A stretch of DNA of 64,000 bases from Halichondria panicea (lineage: Eukaryota > Porifera > Demospongiae > Suberitida > Halichondriidae), in contig NC_087391.1 of NCBI RefSeq assembly GCF_963675165.1, positions 2,685,001-2,749,000 of the forward strand, read 5' to 3'. Below the pieces are notes generated by a model. That model searched no databases and was not told the DNA's origin. It worked only from the letters and a program-made list of their open reading frames with translations. Made by a program: the position numbers and the translations under genes. Each line of letters opens with the position of its first letter. The first letter of the stretch is position 1. Below are positions 28,779 to 44,545 of this stretch, piece after piece.

Positions 28779-31700
28779 ATGTCTAACTCTACAACACCCA
28801 CTGGTCCCACAAAGGCTGAGCAGTTTATGAACTCTCCTCTAGTGGCATGGGTGAGTTTTGTATTAAATGTTGTTAATTAATAGATACTATAGAACTCAAT
28901 GGCACGGTTTTTTGTTGCTAAAAGACTTTGTTTAGTCTTCGATTAAAGTTGATAATTGTGTGTCATTATGTGTGATCAACGTTCCAAGTCATTGCCTAAT
29001 GGTTTTAATATACGAAAGGTAGCATATGTCCCAATGGTACACACGTAGCCTGGACTACTGTAGTTGTTTGCGCTCTTGCCAACTGTGTGTGGAGAGATAC
29101 TACATTTATCTTGGTGTTTTGATGTTGTTGTCGATAAGCTAATTAGATTTCCTTTATTAGGTAAAGAGTTAGGTAAAGAGATGCGCTGTAGTACAAATAC
29201 ACCATTAGTACACGCACAAGTGTATGTTTATATTGTCTAATTCATGTTTATACAATTCCTGATCCTGTACATGTAGTACACAGTCAAAAGTAGAGGTAAT
29301 AAGAGAGCGAGGGTGGAGAGCAAGAGTGTCGAAAATAGCTATACATGTGTGCTGCATTGCGTTCGTTTCAGCGTATCAAGTTTATTGCGTAACAAGAGTG
29401 GTTTCCATCCTCTCCAAGACAACTACTGTCTTTGTTTAGGAATAGAGCTTTCTACAGGTATATACTGGTAACCGCCTTCTATCTACTAGACTGTCTATGC
29501 ACACATCTAGCCACACATGTAGCTAAACTGCACTAGCATGCGAGCAGCTTCACAATGAGTTATAAAGCGCCATGCAGCTCATGTACGTCATGTATGTCAT
29601 GTTACTTTCCACACACACACTCCCTCTCTCATATTTTGTTATGCACTCCTCATAGGTGCTTATCGCGATCGAATAATGATTGCCGACAGTATTGATTAGT
29701 TTGTGCTTTTTGTTGCTATGATGAGGGAAAATGGGTATGTAATGTACATTTAGTCGCTGTAATTATGTAGATACGTATAGGATATACCATTCCTACGAAG
29801 AGGATATACGTGAGTGCATATCCTCTGAGTAGGTGTGGTGACTTACACCACGTGACTGCAGCACTATAAAAAGACCTCCCCCACGATGCATACTGCAAAA
29901 GAGCAAAGCTATGTCAGATTTTGCAGCCGTCAAAGAGCCAGTTGAGCAACATGTCGATTCCTTGGTCCAAGCGTTGTGCATTCGACGTCCCTTACTGGAG
30001 TTGCAAGGGATAAAATGTATCTGAACCACGCCCATGGACCCATGGAGGCTTATATTAGCCATCTTGTTGGAGAGCAGCTTCCGTGTTTTTGCGGTCGCTT
30101 TGAGTCTTAGTACCATCAAGCATAGCTCCTTTCTCTTTGCTTACACTTTCGAACAAATGAAAACACCTTGAAAACTGTGCATGCCTGGGACTGTATGTTA
30201 TTTTTCTATGTATCATACAGCTGTTGACCAATGAGATCAATTAGTGGTGACGTAAGTGTGGTACAAAACAGTGAAAGATTAGGTACATGTACGTATGTAC
30301 ATGTATATGCTCAGTATTAGTAGGTAAGGTGCAATGTGTTTCGTGTCAGGCTTCTAGGAACTTTCAATCTTTTCAGTAATACAATTGAATCCATTATAAT
30401 AGTACTCTCCGAATGTACTGTGTTATTTGTAGCTATCTGGTTTTGACAAGGTACATTAAGCCAACTATGGTTGTGTGTCAACGTAGTGTGAATTGCTGCT
30501 GAGCCTTTGACGTATTATATTGTGCACTATAAATGTACGTTGCTCTTGTGTCAATTATCAATTTGTTTGTTCCTCAGTTTTGATTGTCCCATGATAGATA
30601 GATGTACATTCATGTTGGCAGTTACTAGTTTCCTAGTTCACTCGGTTGCAATATTGAATTGAAATTATGCCTTAGGATGAGTTCCATGTCAAAGTGGATG
30701 TACTATTATGTTTCAGCAACGCTGTTCCTTCAAACTTGAGCCAGAGGCTTCAATATTTGTAGTAGAACAGAAAATAGATGTTCCTCGAGGGTATGCCAAC
30801 CATTAAATTTTAACCAACCCAGTATTTGAGCCGTCAAACTAATAGGCAGTTTTGGTCTGATTTATGTCATAATGTGAACTTTATTAATACCTGCAGCTCA
30901 AAACATTTGACCAGACTGTGCCAATAGAGACTGTGCATGACCTGAGCAATGGAGTACTGCTCAACAAAGTTATGTACACTGTGTAAGTGAATGATAAAGT
31001 AATCAGCCACTCTTGAAACACTTTTTGTATTGTGTAGTGTTCATTGTAGTGGGATTTGCAGCTTAATATTTGTGAATTGTTCCTCTGATTGTATGTACAG
31101 TATACAATTATTTTTTATCTGTTTTTCAGGGACCCCAATGCCTACAGCATGTCCAAAGTTAACAGGAGTGTCACCTTGGACTTGGCTTTGTGTCTACAAA
31201 ACTTCCAAATTTTGGTACAGAGGATTAAGCACTTTTACCTCACTTCTGTCCAACAGCTCGTCATTTGTAATCTCCCTAACATCTCGTCAATCTGCTACGA
31301 TCCAGAGTCAGGTGTGTAGAGCATACAGTATACGTACATGTATACTTACTGGCGTGTCTAACGAGGGGCTTTGGAGGCTTGAGCACCCCTCTGGCCTCCC
31401 AGACAACCATGAGACTATATAATCTAGCTATCAGCACTGGTGTAGCTTAACTGAGCAGTTTTATCGAATTCTCTATGCATATGAATTTACATTTATTGGC
31501 TTGATTGAGCAAGCAAATAGGGTATCAACAACTTTTTTTCCTGTAAATCCTGAGCACCCCCTGCTTCAATTTCTAGAAATGCCCCTGTTCACAGTACATG
31601 CAACATGAAGTATGCATAATTAATTCACACAGCCACTTTGTGTGTGTATGGCACCCCAAGTTTTCTATTTACATTGTAAATGCCTCAAGCATCAAATGAA

Positions 31701-34700
31701 TTGTATTCCTTTGCTGTAAGTGTTCCTAAACCCATAGCTCAGGCTTGCATCATAACTTTGTGGGGTCAACCCATAAATTGCTAATTGTTCTTCCCCCAGA
31801 CTTTAGTCTAGACCAGTTGGAGAAGTTGCTCACTCTGCTACTGGGCTGTGCCATACAGTGCGAATCCAAGGGCCCCATCATTGAAAACATGAAGAGCATG
31901 GACCTATCTCAGCAACAGTCACTTGTGCTGCACATCCAACAGGTCACTGACTCCACCGACTATGTATGCTCCATAGACTGGAACGACCTCGAGGAGATCT
32001 CGAAACAGTGAGAGCTGCAAACAGTATTGTATTCCATAGCTGTACGTGTGAAATCAAACAAGCAGAAGCTCAATGCAATTTGTTCTTGGTCTGTATTGTC
32101 ATACTCCCATACTCTATCTACATACTTCCAGATTATTGTCATACATACACTATCAACTTGCTTTCAGGAGCCTTGAAGGGCTATGTCGGCACGCCTATAT
32201 TCACCTTCAACGTGTAGCCAAGGAGCGAGACCACCACTATGACCATATCACAGAGATCCTACTAGAGAGAGATTATTACAAGAGCCTTCATGACTCACAG
32301 AACTCTGAGCTCTCTGTTCATCATGTAAACGGTTTGCCAGTATCGTCACCGATAAGATCACCCTCTGTAAATCCTGAGATGATTGAGCTCAAGAAAAAGT
32401 GTAGGGCACTGCAAGAGAAACTGTGAGTTGTGCTGACATCTGTATAACAAAAGTTACTTTGTTCAGTTTATGTAGACAGGTACATGCACATAATAATGCC
32501 CGTAATTAGTATTATGTGCGTGACCAGTGCACACATCCTACCAAGTACATGTACAATGTATGGCATGAACAACGTACTACATGTATGTACAGTAGAACCT
32601 CATTATCCGGAAGTACATGCCACACCTACGAGGAGGATATGTACCTACATGTGTACATGTATATTATGTTCTCCGAGTAGGTGTGGTATATCATATCTGC
32701 TACCGTGGCATGTGACTGCAGCATTATAAAAGGACCTCCCCCTAGCAACAATTCAGTGCATGATGCATACTGCAAGACTATGTCGGATTTTGCAGCACTA
32801 GTTAAGCAACACGTCGGGTCCTACGGATGCTCAGGAGCTTCCTAGGTCCAAGCGCTGTGCATTCGATGTCTTTTGCTGCAGTTGCAAGCTCTTCTTGGCT
32901 AAAATGTATACAGACCCATATAATATAGAGGGCTTAACAATCTTATTGGAGAACATTTTCCGTGCTTCTGCCGTCATTTGGAGTCTTAGTACCGTCAAGC
33001 ATGGCTCCTTTCTGTTTGCTTACTTTCTTTGACAATTAATGACAAACACCTTAATATCTGTGCATGCCTGCATGGGGCCGTATGTTATTCTTCTATAATA
33101 ATCCTACAGCTGACAAATTTTTCTACGATGGAGACAAATCAGAAAATGGGCATGTCTTTTAAATACGCAATGAATAACTGTTTCCATGGAGACATGCATG
33201 ATATCTTCTGTGCATGCCTAGACGACCAGGTACACTAAATTTGGATCAATAAGTGGGTGGATCAAGGCGTAGTTTATCTGCATCTGGACTAAGGTGTCTG
33301 GATAATTGTAGTTCTACTGTACCTTTGTTTAGTATTAGGGTTAGTAAGTATAATTTAGCAACTTAGCAGGCCTTTATCTAATATCCAAATAAATTTTTGT
33401 TCCGAGATAGCATCAATTCTCGGGTACTATACTGACAATAAGAATTTCCCGGGGGGCGAGCGCCTCTCCCCTAAATGAAGCCCTGCTTTAAGTACTTGCC
33501 TGATCCGTTTTACCGTTATTGCCCACATACACAGAGACGGCAGGGCCGAAACTCTTTCTGATGCCCGCGAGGAAGGTGACAAACTGAGATTGGCTGTGAA
33601 ACAGCTCCATCAAGAAAAGAGAGAGTTGGCTGAAGATGCTAAGAGTGTGCGGGTGTACAGGGATGAAGTTGAAGCTCTCAGAGTTCAAAGTGCAAAGGTT
33701 GAAAAACTTGAGATCGAAGTAATTAAGTACAAGCAGAAGGCCGAAGATACTGATTACTTGAAGAAAAGAATTGCTGTAAGTCTCATCAATCACGTGAATA
33801 TCAAAATCCTCTTAGTCTATTATGCATCACTGTACTATGTACATGTACAGGATATTAAAACTTTTACCTCACTCTTCCCCTCAGGACCTTCAAGGCCAGA
33901 ATGACCTGATGTCACAAACCAAAAAGCTCCTGGAGCAGAAGGCCACTTCTTTGTCTGCCAAGACTGAGGGTATGGATGAGCTTCAAGAAGCTGTAGTGTC
34001 CTGCAAGGTGAGAGCGGAGGCTCTGGAGGAGGAAAAGGAGATGGACAGTCAGAGAATAGAGGAGCTACTCAGTAACAATACGCGACTGGAAATAGACAAC
34101 AGGCAGTAGTGAGTATTGTTGTATTGTGTGGAACTAAAGTATTAATTGACACAAATACATTGTACATATTTTTATGTGCATGTACAATACTTAAATCTGT
34201 TGCATGGCAACCAAAGGCTTAGTTTGTTATTTGTTATGTGAAAATGTGTGCACTGCACTGTTCAGAGCTGTACCGTAATGGAATGGAACTCGTTCAGTTT
34301 ATAAGCTCAATTTCTTTCATTCCAGTCAAGAAAAGTGTGCTCTGCTGACTAGTGAGCTGGAATCCTTAAGAGAGTCGTCTGCCTCCAGCATTGGAGCTCC
34401 AGGAGAATCTAGTAGCCTTAGCTTTGAGCTAACAGAGGCTGATTTGTAAGTAATGCACACGCACCTTCTCCCACACACAAAGTGCTGACGAACATTTGCT
34501 ATAATAATGTCGTAAGTGGATGTTAATTATTTTGATTGCTAATGTACTAGAATGTTTTGCGAGCATCAAACATATGCGAACTTTGCGATGGTTGATCAAT
34601 TTGCAACAATAAAATCCGCAAAACCTAAATTATTACTAGTAAATACACACGATCCTTGCCAGAACGCAATAGTTAGATCGCAAAGGGTAAAATTTGCTGC

Positions 34701-37700
34701 TGATTTGGTTAGATCGCAAAGGGTAAAATTTGCTGCTGATTTGGCTCATTCGCAAAGGTTTTGACCAGCAAAACATTCTAGTAATACGGTACTGCACCAG
34801 GAGTGCATGCCTGACTGCACATTGTACACATACAACACCTGTACTGTACACAAAATATAATTATAACTTGTGTGGATGTTTGTATGTGAATGTAATTTGA
34901 TCACTCTGCAAATGTCTATGTGCATGCTTAGAAGTGTCTCATTCTAATCTCCTGTCCCATCAGAGCATCAAAGGTGAAGGTGGTCCGGCTTGAGAAAGAG
35001 GCTCGTGAAATGGAAAAGACAATGGAGGCTTTGAGGCATGCCCAAGCCAAAGGAGCTGAGCTGGAGAAAACTACCAAGAAACTTCATGCTCAGACACACA
35101 GTGACAGGAAAGATATAATTAAGCTGAAGGAAGAGAATGAAGTGTTGAAGGTGAAGGCCAGTCGTGTGGACAAGCTGCAGGTGGAGCTCAGCACTCAGAG
35201 GGAAAGGCTTGATGAGGCCAATAGGATAGCACCAAAGTTGAAGGTTGGTGATTTACTAGTGCGACGAGATTTAGACCATAGTGCTGTGCCAGAAAGCATG
35301 CTATAATGTGCCTGTTCTGTTTGTGGTAAAAGGTCACCACATGTGGTCACCAATTACATGTACATCATCTTTAGAAGTGTGTAATAAATTCAATGCTGTT
35401 CATAATTATATTCAGAATATCAAAGTTCGCAATGAGAACCTCTTGGAAGCTAAGGCTAAACTGGAGGATGAAGTGGAGGCCCTTCAGGCTAAAGTGGCCC
35501 TAATCAGTGAGTATTGTCTCTGTAGTAAACGCTTTACATTATGTCTCTATTAATTCACTCAAAGGTCACATTCAGGATGAAAATGCTTCTCTCAAAGTCC
35601 AACTAGACTCTCATAACTCAGTAAGTTGTGTATACTACTATTGTATACCTGCTACCTGCTTGCATTAAATGTGTATTCTTCACAGCATTATTGTATACAT
35701 TCTTGCATACCCGCTGTATTATTATGGTTAACATACTGTACAATGGTTGTGCTATAATTGTTACTGTGGTAACACTTTAGGAACATGAAGAGGACCAGAG
35801 AAGACTGCAAGAACTATTAGAACAAAACGCACAGCTAGAACTGGAGAAAAAGAAAGTGTAAGTAAAAAGATTGCGTTAGTAGCTCATGTACTGAGCTTTG
35901 CACTGTATTTTCACTTTAGATTTGAAGAGTCTGAGGCACAGCGAGCCCAATTGTTGCAGCTGCAGACTAGGAGCAGTTCGAGTGCTCACAAGACGATACT
36001 CAGCCCTCCAAGGGTCTCAGAAGCTGAAATGTATGTTCATTAATTTTATACAGATTATTACAGTGTAGTAGTTGCACAATGTAGATGCCTTATACAGTTT
36101 GAGGTATCACGTATGCAATTCATTTGGTAGCAAATGATCTATGCATGTAGTCATGCACTCCTAGTGTGTAGTATACATTGTTTGTTGCCTTTTGACCTTT
36201 GAGATCAAAGGAAATGCAGTCCCAGTACATGTATATGGCATAACCATTGTAGGGCCGATATATGGCATAATTATTGCAGTGAGTTAGAGGAAGATGCTTT
36301 GAGTCGCATTCTCAACCTACTATTCATTTCCAATACCCGGTACCCTATTAAAATGATTGTATATACAATGTAGCTCTATTAATGCCTGGGAGTAAACGGT
36401 TGATACTTTCCTTATCACGTATTTTTGCACCAGAGTGTCACTTTGAAGTACATGTACATGTATACGTGTTACATACATACATGTAACCGATCCAGCTATG
36501 GAAAGCCTGGCTAATTAGGTGGTCTTAGGTGAATTCTTGGTTTTGGGGTTGCCCGGTACCTGAATGCAAATGTTGGGGGGGGGTTTGAGCCAGTGGGGGG
36601 ATATCCCCCCTTTTCAAGTGTGTACTTTAAGTTCGATTTTAAGATAGAAAAATGCAGTGACGTGTGTTGTGCCTTTCCCAGAGCATCTCGTGCCAAGCTC
36701 CAAAGATTAGAGAAAGAGACTCGTGAGTTAGAGAAATCGATAGAGGCTCTGAGGCATTATCAGGCTAAGTGTGGAGAGCTAGAAAAGATGAACAAAAAGC
36801 TTCAATCACAGGCTCACACTGATCGAAGAGAAATCATCAGACTTAAGGAAGAGGTCCAAGGAAGTAGGTCCAAAGTAACACGACTAGAGATACAACAGTC
36901 TGAAATGAAAAGCCAGGAAGAGCGACTCGAGGATATTGACGGAGCTAGTACCAGAAAGATGATGGTGAGTGCTCCTGGACACATTGTGGCACATACTGGT
37001 CGGTATACGATGTACTAGTAGATATACATGTGCAGCATTCACACCTGGGAGAGTCTAGTGCAGTGTGTATAACAAACCCACAGATACATTGTTACGTAAC
37101 ATGTAGTTCATAAAAATATCTGGCGATCGTTACGTATACTAGCCAATATTGTTACACACATTCTGTGTCTGTCATTCACTTAGGAGCTGCGTCAGCAGAA
37201 TGCCCTCCTCTCGGAGACCAAGGTGTTGCTAGAGGAGGAGCTAACTGGGCTGCATGCCAAACTGGAGCAGTTGGGTGACATTCAGGCAGACAATGCTGCC
37301 CTCAATGTGAGAGTGGAGAGTCTGGAAGATGAGATAAATGAAGAAGGACTCAGGATGCAGGAGCTCCTACAGCAGAATGCTCAGCTTGAGATGAGCCAGG
37401 ACAGCAAGTAAGGCATGCATGGTCGTCAATCTTCTGTTTTGCAGTCTTTTCATGACTCTGTCCAAGCCTGTACTGTACGTATAATTAGTTTTAAATCTTT
37501 TACCGTGTTGCTACAGTATTGTGTATAATTATTGTGTGTGGCTAACATAATTATTATTATTTACAAAAACTTTGTGAGTGCTTATGGCTTTGCAAGAACG
37601 ATCAACAGCAAGTAGTAAATACGGTTGGATTAGCTGTTACGTTGATTATTAAACTGAGATGTGTAGACAGCCGCCGGTTATAGAAGTCAGTCAGTGTCGT

Positions 37701-40700
37701 TTGTCTGTGTCTGTGTATTCTGAGTCTGCTCACCTGGACGCCAAAAGTGCTGTGCTGAAAGCCTCATAAAACAAGTTATTAGTTGTGCCTTGGTGTGCGC
37801 ATGCGCAAGCAAAGTATACGATAGAGTACTGTAACAGTATTTGTGTCTCTCAATCTGTGTGTCTGTCTGTGTAGACTGCTATAGCTGCTCAATAATCATC
37901 GAAGTGCAAGTAAGGGCTTCTACATGTACATGTATATGCATTGGATTTGCAAAATAATGCTTCATTCTTGAGCTAAGCCCAAACAATGGCAGTCTTTCCA
38001 AATAGTGCGTATCAAAACTTTTCTACCCTACTACTCTACTCAGTTAGCTCTGCACTAGAAGGCTGGCTAACTATTGGCTGTAGCTGCAAGAGTGAGAAAA
38101 GAGCTGCACCTGAGCTGAGGGGGCCACCCAGGCCCACCCTCAACAAAACTTAAAGCAGCTACGAATGGACTTAATTCTTAGAAGTGCAATGTGCACATTG
38201 GCTAGCATAATTAACTGGTTTAATTTATAGTTCCTTGCATATGCGAAATATAACCACGTGGAGCCCTATTTGTTTCCATGCGAATGCTCAGGGTTTCCTT
38301 GATGACTCTGCTGTAATTACAGTCCCAGATGACCTACCACTACCAGTGGCGTGTACAATGGGGGGCTTTGGGGGCTTGAGCACCCCCCTGTCCTCCCAGA
38401 CAACCATGAAACTAATCCTATCACTCGTGCAGTAGCTAGCTAACTGTGCAGCTCCAAAGTACGTACGTGCAGATTTCTATCTCATTACAACGATTACAAG
38501 TCATGACCACGCCCAATTGAGCATGCGCAATCAGCATTGCCATATTCCAATGTTGTTATGTAATGCATAATAGCTGATCAAGATCCTCTGGACTCTCCCA
38601 GTCACCTCTTGCTCCACTGAGAGATTTTGAGAAGCAATGACTAACACTAGAGTGACTGGACATCCCCATTGCAGTGATTGACCAGTTTGCTAGGATGTAC
38701 CCCAGACAGAGCCTCCAAGTAGAAACTTTTCTTTTCAGTATTAATCAGCTCATTTTTCTGTATTTAATGATGATTTTCAGTATAAAACGATGTACAAAAC
38801 ATGGAAATTCGATGAAATGCTGTTTAGTGGCTTTGTACTTGCCCCGCCCCTTCAATAAAGGGGCGTGGCAAGCGAAACAAATAGCTGTCTTTCAGCACCA
38901 GACTCACTACCAGCATAAGGCGTAGAGCTACTACAGCTGTAGGGATGCTACTAGATCCTTCGCTGTCAACTATAGAGGTTATGCAGATCCGCCCACTTCC
39001 GGCCAAAACTCCCTAAAACTCATTAATTAGGGGGCGTGGTTACATATGTCTGCCATTTTGAGTGGCAAAAAGCACGAGTGGCAAGCAGTAGCAATGTTAT
39101 TTGCAAAAGTTTGCAGCTCTACTATGGCTGAGTGTGATGCAGGGAGAGTCTCCAACTACTTTCAAGAACTAGAACAGGGTGCTATAAAGCTATCATGTCA
39201 AGAAAAGGAGCATAAACAACAAGACAATGGATAAACCATGCAAACCAATTGACTGAATTGTAGATTTATAGAGCTGCACACACGTGAAAATGTTTGTCTA
39301 TTGCACTGATTTCTGTTTCCATATCATGTTTATGTTCAGTATCTCTGGAGAGAGAGCGTCTTGACTCTTTCTGCCTGTGATAGAGTGAATAACAAAAAAA
39401 TTAATGCGGGGGTGTAAAATTGCGCGCTATGCACGCCGCCCTATTTTTTTCTGTGCTCTTGAGCACCTCCCTGCTTCAATCTCTAGAAACGCCCCTGACT
39501 ACAGTATTACCAATCCCATTATCAAAGCCTTGCCACAGCTTTGTAGGTTTACATGTTAATAGTGGCCGGTGGCTTCTCTACTTACTTCATCATGCATGCT
39601 ACTGCTTTTACAGCATTCCTCTAGTTGTGAGACATGCTATTGATCAATGCTCTAGTTGATTGTTATTTGTGGTATTCTACTCGGCAGGTTGCATGCACTG
39701 TGTAGTGTTTGGATATCTGTTAATCTGTTGCATTTGTATGTATAGGTCTGTTGAGATTGAGACATTGAAGAGTCATGTGGCACAACTTAAGTTGAAACTC
39801 TCCAATGAAGGTTCGTACTAGAAATGCCACTAGAGTCTATAGTTTATAGGCTCCTGGAGTCGATGTGCGGATATATATTTATTACCCCTCAGATTTTACT
39901 ATTAACAACAATATTACTTAATGTTATAGACACAGACTCTAACGGACAAACTCAGCCAAGTGGTGTGGACCTGTGAGTAGCGTTTGTATTATGTACAATA
40001 AAGTGTGGCTGATTGTGTACATATTATGTGGCGTACCATATATGCTTGATCAGAGGCTGTGGCGTACCATATATGTTTGATCAGAGGCTGTGGCTACTAA
40101 ATGTTTCATTTTGCTGGCAGAGGAGGCTACAATTCGAGAGAGGCCACTGTCTGAGAGAGGCGTTTAGTAGGCCTACATGTACTAACACCCCAACTAATTC
40201 AGTTTTTAGTTTGTCATCAAAAGTATTTTCACCTGGACAAACTTGACTTAAATTTTCAAAAGCAATAACAAGTTGGTACCTAGCTAGCTGCTACCATAGA
40301 TACCAGTATCAATATAACTGAGGCTACTATTTGAAAGGGGCTTCTATTGCACTGAAGATGGGCTGTAGGTAGGCTACTATTTGAGTGTGGTCTCTGATCA
40401 AGCATATACGGTACTGTACGACCCTTTCTTTATATTTTAGTGTGTTGCTTTTTACCTAATGTATGTTTGAGTGTGTCTCTTACTATTCCAGTGAGAGTCA
40501 GACAAAGCTCTTGCGCTTGGAGAGGCAGAATCGTGAGCTGGATAGGTCACTGCAGGTGCTCAAGCAGAGCAGTGAGAGGGTCAATGCAGGGGTCGAAAAG
40601 ACAAACAAAAAGTTAACAGCCCAAATCCATGCCGACAATAAGGAGATTGCTAGACTCAAAGAGGTGAGGTGATTTTTGCTGGTTCACTATACTGGAAGAA

Positions 40701-43700
40701 AATTTTGAATTATACATTCATGTGTAAATAAAATAATGTGTGCAGTAATTTATGTTTTGGTGGCTTTTGTAGGAGTTGAGGAAGGAGCGCAACCAGCATG
40801 CCAGACTCAGTAGATTAAGCTCAGTTGGAGATGAGCATGACTTGCAGGAGACAAGGTGCATTTTCCTGTCTGCATAATAATAATTATATACATGGCGTAC
40901 GTGTGCCGGTAGAGTTCTCACGCATGTACATGTAGGTCATTTCAGTAAAGGTCGATTCAATAAAGGTCAATCCTTATAAAGGTCAAACCCAACAATAAAG
41001 GTTTCTCTTTATGGTTTGGAAGTTAATGGTTTGGAAGTTATTGTTTTGGTGGTTAGCCCGTAGATAGAGGGCAGAGGTCAGATAGTTTACAAAAAACTTG
41101 ACCTTCATCTTCTGCCAGCATTCAACAGGACTTGTGTTTCATGGGGTTCAATGCGTGTGCGTGTGCGTGTGCGTGTGCGTGTGCGTGGACGTTGATATCA
41201 CAGAATCGCTGGGCTTGCAAAAAAATGATAGAGCTATGCAAGATCTCTTAGAATTTTAGAATTCTAATGCCTTTGGACAGACTAGAAGTACAGGGTAGCC
41301 ATCAAAATAAAGATACCCTTGAATAAGGGCAAAGGGGGAACTTTGTTTTAAAAGTGACAAGAATATGCATATCGATGGGTAAATGAGTATAGGTGAACTG
41401 CTGGGTACAGTTGTGTTATTGCCAATTTTTTCATGTATCAGGCAACTCCAAGAGCTAGAGTCCAAATTCAAAGACTTCTACTCTCAGAGCCTGAGCAACA
41501 AGGATGACAGGATTAAGGTGCTTGACAGCAGAATAGAGGAACTTACAGATGAAAATCACCAACAAAAGCAAGAAATCAAGGACCTTCGTATGAGTATAGA
41601 CAGACTTAAAGAGGTTGGAAGCCCCCGCATTGTGAGCAGAACCCATTCTCCTAGGGAGATGAACCGTCTCAAGGAGCAGGCTGCAGATGCGCTACGTCTC
41701 AGGGACAAGTTTCATGCTATACAAGAGGAGGTGAGTATACACGTACATGTAATTTTGTTTAGAAATATGTTATGCACCTACGTACATATCAATGTTTCCA
41801 ATTGATATTTATTATTACTGGATGGTGTAACAGATTGACATTCGACTTTCTCGTGCTTGTTTCCATGCTTTTTGGTGTTTCCTTGCCTTGCAAATGTAAA
41901 TGTGCAATACAGCAAGCGTTTTTCCCCCGTTATTGACCTATACACTACAACTGCATTTGCCAGCAGTGCTCTTCTTTCCTTATACAGAATAACCATCTCA
42001 CTAGAGACTTCCTAGAGGCAAAACATGTGATCCAACAACAAGACAGTCACAACCAGAGGCTCAATGATCGCCTTCAGATGCTAGAGCAACTGAACCAGAC
42101 ACTAGAGGAAGAGAAAAAGACCCTCTTGCAGCAGGTCAATAAGATGCTGGAGAAAAACCAAGAGCTACTGGTCAAGACTTTAGAGAGCAAAGACCAAGCC
42201 TTTGAGGATGAAAGATTTTTGGCGTGAGTTAGGTAGATTTAATGGACAAGCACAAGGCTTATGCTTTCAGTGTGACGTCAATACTTGTATTGATAAAAAA
42301 AATGTATATGTACTGTATCATGCACTCCTGACTCATTGACTGTATACATGTACATGTATTAATGTATGTTTGCTTTACAGTGATCGTCTTGGTGAGCTAG
42401 AAAGAGACAAGGCTCGTCTAACTGAGAAACTTATTGCTCATCAAAAAGAGCACATCTCCAAGGAAATGGACCATTGGAAGAAAAGTAAGAGCAAAAACAT
42501 TCTTAAGAAAGGCTTTAAGAAGCTAAAAGGCAAGATTCAAGGTCGCAGTCACGTGTTTGAAGTTCCTGAGCCAGGAGCTTTGGGCAGTAGCAACACCGTA
42601 AACAGTGGGTCAATGGGCTCTCCATCTGGTAGCTCTGGCGTGTTAGGAGGAGCTCTGTATGCAATAGATGGAAACATGTCTCAGAGCAGTCAGTCCATCT
42701 CTTCATCCAACAGTGGAAGACACTCCGAGGATATGGAAGAGACAGAGCAGCTTGAATCGTGAGTTTCAACTACATGTATTACTGCCCTCCATACCAGACA
42801 AACCCTTTTACATTTTTTAGTGTACATGTGGTAAATTTATATGGCTATGCATAATTAGCTGTTATTCGTCCCACTTGTTTTTTGCTTTGACAAGGTCTAG
42901 CTTCTAATTGTTGGACTTATAATGTTCTGTTGCTTCAGTAACTCGTATGTTCCTCGTGCTCCCACACTGGATGGCAGTCCTTTCATGCGTCCAAGAAAAA
43001 CTCGTTCCTACACACTGCCTGGTTCTGGAGCAGTGAAGATGAGACATGCTCAAGCTGGTGCTTCGTTGAGCTTTGAACCAGAGAGATCAGATAACAACCT
43101 TATCACACTGGAAGATTTCCTGGCTGAGAGTGAGAAAACTCCTAATAAGGTGATTTAAACTTTGGTGTACACTGTGCATGAATTGATTTGTAAATATTTA
43201 CTGAAGAAGACTGTGTTTTGGTGTTTATAAAATTTTATGTATATATTCGATCACTCAGTGGTGATTGAGCCCATGCAAAATAAATAATCATGTGTACCAG
43301 GCTGTCTTTTCAAGCTGCCTGGAAGTGATTTATGCTCGGCACATGTACAATGTACATGTATAGTGCTGGCTGCAAGAGACTTGGTACTGTACATGTACTA
43401 CTACATGTACGTGTATATCTATATTGCTTCTTATGCTATATTTCCCTTTTTAGCGTCGTGTGATGGAATTAAAACGAGCCTCACTCATCATTGGTACTCC
43501 TCCGTCCACACCTCGTAACAGTATGCTCTTACCTGTCCCTCCACCGAGTAACAGCAGTCAAATATTCGACCTCTCAGAGTTCCTATCCAAATTTGATCCT
43601 GGAGATGCATCTGGCACCATTCCTGAAAATGAAGAGCTCCAGCAACTCTCAGCTGCAAGAGACTTCAGAACATCTCAGCAATCTGTGTCACAACGCTCCA

Positions 43701-44545
43701 AGTCCAGTAGTAGCTTGCAATCTGCACCTAGTCAAACATCGCTATCAAGCAAAAATGATGGTGTTCCTGTGATCATCAACCCAGCTGCAAATGCAAACTT
43801 TAATAATAACAATAATCCCCCTGTGCCAAGTATTTTTTTTTCTGGAATTGGTACACAGTTATCTGGACCTTCATCATCTACCCCTAATAGTGAATCTAAT
43901 CCTTTCCAGGATACTTCCCAAATCAGTTCTCAAAGCTACACTGGTAATTTTCGACCACAACAAACTTTGGCAGATGAGCAATTGTCCTTGACAGAAGCGT
44001 TAGCATTTTTAGAGCCTCTCAATGAAGTCAGAGAAGAGAAAAGTGCGACTGTAAGTGCTAGTCACATGTCGAGAAGTAAAAGTACTGATGCATTAAAAAA
44101 AGATAGCAAGCAGAAGACAAAAAGCCGAGGACTGTTTAAGAGAAATTTTCATCGATCCACAGAAGGCTTAGTTGATGAACAAAAATCTAAAGTGAATAGT
44201 GGCAAGCCTCCGATGGGGAAGCCTGCAAAAAGTGGAAAGAAAATTTTTGAAGAAAAGAGGAGACAAAGCACATCGTCATTAGAAGCCAAACATGTGAATG
44301 AGAAACGTCGAAGCACTCCCAATCTTTCAGCTCTCACAGATATAAACCAGCCTCGAGACTTATCACAAGCTGACCAAGCATTCACACCATCAAAGAGAAA
44401 ATCGTACGAGAATGTTCAATTTGAAAATGATTCTGATCCCTTTTCAAAAATCGACGGGAGCTTCTCTTCCTTATATCAGCCTGCCAGTGTTAGCTCAAAA
44501 ATTCCTGAGGAAGAATCAGTATGGCAAGAATATGGCCCTTTCTAG
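28779..44545 (+). CDS. CCDC88: Girdin/Daple-type HOOK and coiled-coil protein (CCDC88 family)
   Basis: A cytoskeletal and G-protein-linked scaffold. Twenty-four exons: 28779-28850, 30897-30982, 31130-31311, 31800-32007, 32168-32422, 33535-33775, 33885-34108, 34326-34445, 34964-35243, 35416-35506, 35565-35620, 35781-35857, 35920-36030, 36682-36964, 37184-37407, 39746-39810, 39930-39972, 40492-40663, 40773-40855, 41442-41730, 41988-42223, 42381-42758, 42939-43149, 43454-44545. They give exactly 1692 codons. Residues 1-200 form the HOOK domain (EQFMNSPLVAW, LTLLLGCAIQCESK, LVLHIQQVTD), followed by the family ERD repeats. About 270-1130 is coiled coil, with NKMLEKNQELLVKTLESKDQ shared with Hook/CCDC88. 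Then come a basic stretch (KKGFKKLKGKIQG) and a Ser/Pro-rich tail. Candidate G-alpha-binding motifs are TLEDFLAES (Phe about 1319) and DLSEFLSKF (Phe about 1372). Introns carry many MITEs. Orthology to a single vertebrate paralogue is not implied. Confidence 0.95.
29779..30252. mobile_element. Repeat (R3) in CCDC88 intron 1
   Basis: It matches in direct orientation the interior of the element at 32588-33317: CTCTGAGTAGGTGTGGTGAC, GACTGCAGCACTATAAAAAG, GCATACTGCAAAAGAGC, TTGGTCCAAGCGTTGTGCAT. It lacks a clear terminal repeat at either end. Open frames within it do not resemble a transposase. Confidence 0.65.
31340..31595. mobile_element. Short element with GGGGCTTTGGAGGCTTGAGC block, CCDC88 intron 3
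   Basis: The left part (GGCTTGAGCACCCCTCTGGC, CCCAGACAACCATGA) and right part (CTTCAATTTCTAGAAATGCC) match both ends of the longer unit at 38335-39505, as if one were an internal deletion of the other. Confidence 0.65.
32588..33317. mobile_element. Pogo/Tigger-like non-autonomous element, CCDC88 intron 5
   Basis: TACAGTAGAACCTCATTATC at 32588 is mirrored by GATAATTGTAGTTCTACTGTA at about 33300-33319 (one mismatch cluster), flanked by TA. Length about 730 bp. It contains the R3 unit also present in intron 1, and its right part matches the shorter element in UGP2 intron 9. No transposase frame. Confidence 0.75.
34548..34790. mobile_element. MITE with CTAGAATGTTTTGC ends and internal tandem repeat, CCDC88 intron 8
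   Basis: CTAGAATGTTTTGCGAGC at 34548 is mirrored by GCAAAACATTCTAG near 34768-34781. Inside, a 36-base unit containing TTAGATCGCAAAGGGTAAAA is present twice in tandem (about 34673-34744). A diverged partial copy lies at 12630-12815. Confidence 0.8.
37680..38175. repeat. Family S repeat in CCDC88 intron 15
   Basis: GTTAGCTCTGCACTAGAAGG and GCTGCAAGAGTGAGAAAAGA match the copy in UGP2 intron 5 in the same orientation. The left border contains TCTGCTCACCTGGACGCC, also seen near 4176 and 49982. Confidence 0.55.
38335..39505. mobile_element. Longer copy of the GGCTTGAGCACCCC element, CCDC88 intron 15
   Basis: It starts ACCAGTGGCGTGTACAATGG and ends CTAGAAACGCCCCTGACTAC, the same ends as the 255-bp unit in intron 3. 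The internal 1 kb has no convincing transposase frame. The family could be hAT- or Harbinger-like, but this cannot be decided from the ends alone. Confidence 0.55.
40028..40092. repeat. 32-bp tandem duplication, CCDC88 intron 17
   Basis: A unit containing GTGGCGTACCATATATG and TTGATCAGAGGCT occurs twice head to tail with one base difference. Confidence 0.9.
41153..41187. repeat. (GTGTGC)n microsatellite, CCDC88 intron 19
   Basis: About five to six hexamer units of GTGTGC lie in the intron before exon 20. Confidence 0.9.

Follow-up and report, generated by a model that had tools for sequence, protein, structure and literature searches.

The window analysed here, a stretch of 64,000 nucleotides from the sponge Halichondria panicea (C15:2685001-2749000 in a 131-Mb genome of 39 contigs), carries a gene with 24 predicted coding exons, the spliced frame of which, in our manual splice model, continues without a break to a TAG over 1,689 residues. 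The N-terminus of the predicted protein is a HOOK domain (HOOK_N, E=1.1e-17; PF19047, 64.6 bits against a cut-off of 23.5), and the solved structures nearest to it are HOOK-domain chains of Hook3 and Hook1 (best E=4.2e-14). HOOK_N/HOOK matches were returned from two loci in the genome, this gene on C15 and another on C4. From its domain order, the presence of the separate HOOK gene and a likeness to girdin and DAPLE, we call the predicted gene a CCDC88 of the girdin/DAPLE type. It shares with that family a HOOK_N domain, a long region that reads as coiled-coil-like and a C-terminal tail, but differs in having three tandem copies of a unit made of blocks A, B and C. Human girdin probably has one A block. 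The gene, its repeated exons (E7-E8-E9; E10/11/12-E13-E14; E15-E16/17-E18/19) and the two introns of most concern here are as follows, in window coordinates.

28779..44545, forward strand: CCDC88-type gene, 24 coding exons, predicted protein of 1,689 aa (manual splice model, HOOK_N match)
33885..34108, forward strand: E7, unit 1 block A, 224 b, phase 0 to 2, uninterrupted (splice model)
34326..34445, forward strand: E8, unit 1 block B, 120 b (splice model)
34964..35243, forward strand: E9, unit 1 block C, 280 b (splice model, genome protein search)
35416..35506, forward strand: E10, first piece of block A of unit 2 (91 b), phase 0 to 1 (splice model, ranking of splice forms)
35507..35564, forward strand: first extra intron (58 bp, phase 1), with AAG as acceptor; retention brings stops (splice model)
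35565..35620, forward strand: E11, second piece of block A of unit 2 (56 b), phase 1 to 0 (splice model, ranking of splice forms)
35621..35780, forward strand: second extra intron (160 bp, phase 0), with TAG as acceptor; retention brings stops (splice model)
35781..35857, forward strand: E12, third piece of block A of unit 2 (77 b), phase 0 to 2 (splice model, ranking of splice forms)
35920..36030, forward strand: E13, unit 2 block B, 111 b (splice model)
36682..36964, forward strand: E14, unit 2 block C, 283 b (splice model, genome protein search)
37184..37407, forward strand: E15, unit 3 block A, 224 b, phase 0 to 2, uninterrupted (splice model)
39746..39972, forward strand: unit 3 block B, E16 (39746-39810, 65 b), a copy-specific intron of 119 bp and E17 (39930-39972, 43 b) (splice model)
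40492..40855, forward strand: unit 3 block C, E18 (172 b), a copy-specific phase-0 intron of 109 bp and E19 (83 b) (splice model, alignment)

The A blocks of all three units align without gaps over 74 residues at 28-41% identity; compared ungapped, they score 106, 134 and 139 in register and at most 20 in any other register within 21 residues. Across the units, phase is identical at each of three points: where A starts, at A|B and at B|C. When the unit-3 A block was searched against the whole genome at the protein level, a search that scores the best candidates only, three matches were obtained at E up to 1, all within the CCDC88-type gene; apart from the query itself these were the A block of unit 1 (7e-8) and that of unit 2 (0.155, a weak match to an intron-cut block). 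The unit-2 C block likewise found copies in this gene only at E up to 1, in unit 1 (7e-19) and in unit 3 (E18, 3.4e-7). The B blocks, or linkers, align poorly (10/36, 5/35 and 6/31 identical columns). With the three-block alignment as a pattern, orthologues were sought in one scan each of prokaryote genome contigs (172 hits) and viral contigs (82), and none of the hits was confirmed. These comparisons establish the three predicted A blocks as homologous, with their 224-base length unchanged. The coiled-coil region would then have been lengthened through tandem duplication of a three-exon unit consisting of A (224 b), B (about 115 b) and C (about 280 b), with boundary phases 0, 2, 2 and 0.

The middle A block is encoded in three pieces. 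An earlier note had proposed that E7 and E15, both of 224 bases and running from phase 0 to phase 2, correspond in the second unit to exons of 91, 56 and 77 bases that add up to the same length, and that introns of 58 and 160 bp interrupt this one copy of a duplicated exon; we could reproduce the coordinates and phases, and both introns are GT-AG and absent from E7 and E15. The first is a phase-1 intron within codon 31 and the second a phase-0 intron that follows residue 49, and retention of either or both brings a frameshift and stops. We ranked the two-intron GT-AG forms of this region that are open, have the right end phase and contain introns of at least 40 bp (n=1,052; one-intron forms, 65 of them open, were counted outside the ranking). 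Fourteen of these yield 224 bases, and the 91+56+77 form ranks top of the 14 in ungapped comparison (245, next 172) as well as top of all 1,052 by gapped scoring (245, next 227). The sequence thus fits a three-exon structure of the middle A block, from which we infer that the block is spliced as modelled: both introns would be removed, the block would encode the same 74-residue segment as the other copies, and its function would be ordinary. The 58-bp intron has the second weakest acceptor score in the gene, which would suit a different splicing of the block or a block that is partly non-coding. We nevertheless consider it very unlikely that the three-exon model is wrong, as the preferred form is the best of the 1,052 in restoring length, register and phase, retained introns bring stops, and an intron as short as 62 bp is also present in this gene.

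The two introns were either gained in the middle copy or lost from copies 1 and 3. Grouped by sharing, three introns of the repeated region are common to all units, none is found in two, and four occur in one unit only. The shared ones, at the start of A and at A|B and B|C, are kept in 9/9 unit positions, so that losses after the duplication would seem infrequent (a flat prior gives 0.26 per intron per copy as the 95% upper bound), with the caveat that these classes were chosen because they are common to all copies. Loss alone predicts many introns present in two units, and a loss-only model fits worse: with the copies treated as a star and equal rates assumed, its logL is -9.1, compared with -4.8 for gain plus loss, which has one extra parameter, and the values become -7.3 and -3.8 if two shared classes are used. 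By our rough estimate the odds of loss per intron are 6% at equilibrium, rising to 16% if the ancestor was 3 times richer in introns and to 36% if it was 10 times richer.

The acceptor sites point in the same direction. None of the four copy-specific introns has a CAG acceptor, compared with 15/19 of the gene's other introns (Fisher 0.008), and, counted from the weakest of 23 acceptor scores, theirs take places 2, 3, 5 and 9 (exact p 0.008). All of the tests on gain and loss, the model fits included, are post hoc, confined to one gene and four introns, and treat the copies as a star with equal rates. The weakest acceptor of all belongs to E5/E6, which is outside the copy-specific set; the four show no weakness at the donor (exact p 0.52), and stops upon retention draw no distinction (4/4 against 18/19 of the other introns). 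Novel introns in Drosophila also have fewer CAG acceptors, bring stops on retention and are mostly of unknown origin, as described in PMC2809761; however, their polarity comes from orthologues in nine species and they are weak at donor and acceptor alike, whereas the sponge introns are polarised by copies within one gene and are weak at the acceptor only.

We infer that gain in the middle copy is favoured over loss, and put the probability that the two introns of this A block were gained after duplication of the A-B-C unit, as precise insertions, at roughly two in three. On this reading the middle A block would have been interrupted at some later point by two precise insertions that became spliceosomal introns, with no codon added or removed; precise insertion is to be preferred over intronisation because no coding base was lost. 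The opposite course, in which both introns were already present in the ancestral A block and precise losses, through recombination with cDNA for instance, removed them from copies 1 and 3, seems to us unlikely, although some points speak for it: the ancestor of animals has been inferred to be intron-rich, at 8.7 introns per kb of coding sequence by the figure given in PMC5560861, and scattered intron positions in the coiled-coil tail of arthropod muscle myosin are read in PMC2257972, as that work presents them, mainly as losses. Under loss, however, both introns must have vanished independently in two copies while the boundary introns stayed in 9/9 positions, the fit of the loss-only model is poorer and the weak acceptors are left unexplained.

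The HOOK gene of the same genome serves as an outgroup for this question:

C4, about 7509809-7513275, minus strand: HOOK-type gene in which four small exons (51-64 b) follow one another

Over the homologous stretch its exons measure 129, 54, 51, 60 and 64 b, and the first four introns are all in phase 0, after residues 43, 61, 78 and 98 of this stretch. Alignment of this stretch with unit 1 scores 71, compared with a mean of 44 and a maximum of 74 among 500 shuffles; against solved structures the stretch gave a single match at chance level (E 0.59). Past its first third the alignment is weak; in 3/3 MAFFT multiple alignments a gap of seven residues opens immediately after block residue 31 and takes in the second HOOK intron, and the third HOOK intron follows residue 46, so HOOK introns lie near both sites of the middle copy, as loss would have it. 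The sites are not identical, however: at the first, the intron of the middle copy lies within codon 31 and its phase, 1, is not that of the HOOK intron, and at the second (phase 0, after 49 in the middle copy) the two are three residues apart; pairwise alignments with other gap costs, or with the A blocks of units 2 and 3, move the HOOK introns elsewhere. By our own arithmetic (four introns over about 74 residues) the chance that a HOOK intron lies within three residues of a given site is about four in ten. The nearby HOOK introns may still leave room for old introns at these sites and thus keep loss alive, and on account of their nearness we lowered our confidence in gain from 0.72 to 0.66 and regarded loss, unlikely as it is, as somewhat less so than before. 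A long TG repeat lies just upstream of the exon that precedes the small exons of this HOOK gene.

The earlier note had suggested a search of the genome for a source element. A whole-genome DNA search with each extra intron, which skips simple repeats and very common words and could therefore miss a very common element, found its own locus only, with no second match at E up to 10. When all four copy-specific introns were compared with the gene's other introns and exons, the lowest p values over 46 comparisons each were 0.02 and 0.01 for the two of the middle A block and 0.03 and 0.005 for the others, none of which is convincing. The copying of introners and the tandem duplication of exon sequence are both described as routes to precise gain in the accounts of PMC9860276 and PMC3443670, but that the extra introns are recent products of either is most improbable given the single genome match of each, the weak similarity to sequences in the gene and, by inspection, the lack of AGGT at both ends of either intron. 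It should be noted that old age would erase the traces of a source, so these searches test a recent origin only.

The two introns were also described in the earlier note as a dated case of gain or loss. Gain is the better reading, as set out above, and the interruption of one duplicated copy stands, but the dating does not: codon agreement between copies is at chance, and all that holds is that the introns, if gained, came after the duplication of the block. Among residues identical between A blocks, codons agree at 8/21 (8.1 expected), 13/29 (10.3) and 11/30 (11.5), and in the C blocks of units 1 and 2 at 19/45 (18.2 expected by codon usage). Agreement at the level of codon usage means saturation, and the duplications are accordingly old.

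As to their order, units 1 and 2 form the closest pair in their C blocks (48% identity; 1,986/2,000 resamplings), and the B blocks of the same units lean together (1,384/2,000), while for the A blocks the closest pair in 2,000 resamplings was units 2 and 3 in 1,101, units 1 and 3 in 864 and units 1 and 2 in 35. Such a pattern would suit a B-C-A segment as the last to be duplicated, A1-[B1-C1-A2]-[B2-C2-A3]-B3-C3, with an A part that hangs on the split of 1,101 to 864. With such a duplication, each intron of the middle A block requires one gain or two losses, and those in blocks B and C of unit 3 one event either way.

The latter introns accordingly carry less weight. The note had said that the last part of unit three is split in the same way, as 65+43 against 120 and 111 in the other units; the numbers are right (65+43=108), but the parallel is weaker than claimed, as the linkers align poorly and the split is not polarisable likewise. 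In unit 3 the C block stands apart from the other copies, and the B block does so less clearly, so that one gain or one loss equally explains this split. The note had also missed E18/E19, the fourth copy-specific intron, which lies in the C block of unit 3. It is a tentative suggestion, and one we would sooner doubt than accept, that all four were gained after the unit had been triplicated, in which case the repeated coiled-coil region would be a trap for new introns, whose weak acceptors were kept long after synonymous saturation.

Intron gain in paralogous genes and in internal gene duplications was reportedly treated by Babenko et al. in 2004 and by Gao and Lynch in 2009. Those cases have in common with the sponge gene that duplicated coding copies differ by introns, but here the copies are blocks of one gene, and the split lies inside a block whose exact length is kept. 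Gain is higher in paralogues according to the treatment in PMC3443670. In the Dystroglycan gene, too, lineage-specific extra introns lie within a conserved coding exon, but in the description given in PMC5216574 these are polarised across phyla, those in the sponge by repeated blocks. The sponge CCDC88-type gene is probably one good, ordinary example of a known process of intron gain. Repeated blocks inside one gene share their expression and mutational surroundings, which makes them natural replicates for the study of intron turnover, and with orthologues from other early-branching animals this gene could order duplication and insertion relative to each other and test how long weak acceptors persist.

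Other parts of the predicted gene deserve mention. The C-terminal tail contains a GBA-like sequence, LITLEDFLAES, in E23 (window 42939-43149), where residues 1308-1321 read NNLITLEDFLAESE; the GBA peptide of GIV is printed in PMC5454376 as KTGSPGSEVVTLQQFLEESNKLTSVQ, next to that of DAPLE. A GBA-like pattern of our own, in a loose and a strict version, has one occurrence in the protein; among shuffles of the last 519 residues it turns up in 0.15% with the loose version and in 0.015% with the strict. Plain alignments to the GIV and DAPLE peptides were matched by 30 and 28 of 3,000 shuffles (about 1%), and a search of the peptide against solved structures gave no match. Support for a resemblance of this predicted sequence to the G-protein-activating GBA motif is thus moderate. 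Invertebrate CCDC88 proteins are said to be without the motif, which within CCDC88 is confined to vertebrates in the accounts of PMC10943482 and PMC8042451; if relatives confirm the sponge sequence, CCDC88 would have acquired its G-protein-activating module much earlier than these papers state. The protein ends (window 44528-44545) in EYGPF, close to the PDZ-binding end EYGCV reported for fly and worm GIV in PMC8042451.

The introns of the gene hold several repeats. Two copies of one element, 71% alike, lie at 29849-30223 (intron E1/E2) and 32709-33112 (intron E5/E6). Introns E3/E4 and E15/E16 share short paired matches of 83-88% (31350-31417 with 38347-38414; 31534-31596 with 39444-39506), which are perhaps the ends of one dispersed repeat, and intron E8/E9 contains two copies of an exact 36-base tandem repeat (34672-34743). 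Finally, the start of E6 (33535-33544) has two in-frame acceptors, the alternative one 9 bases upstream, and a small alternative splice is possible there.
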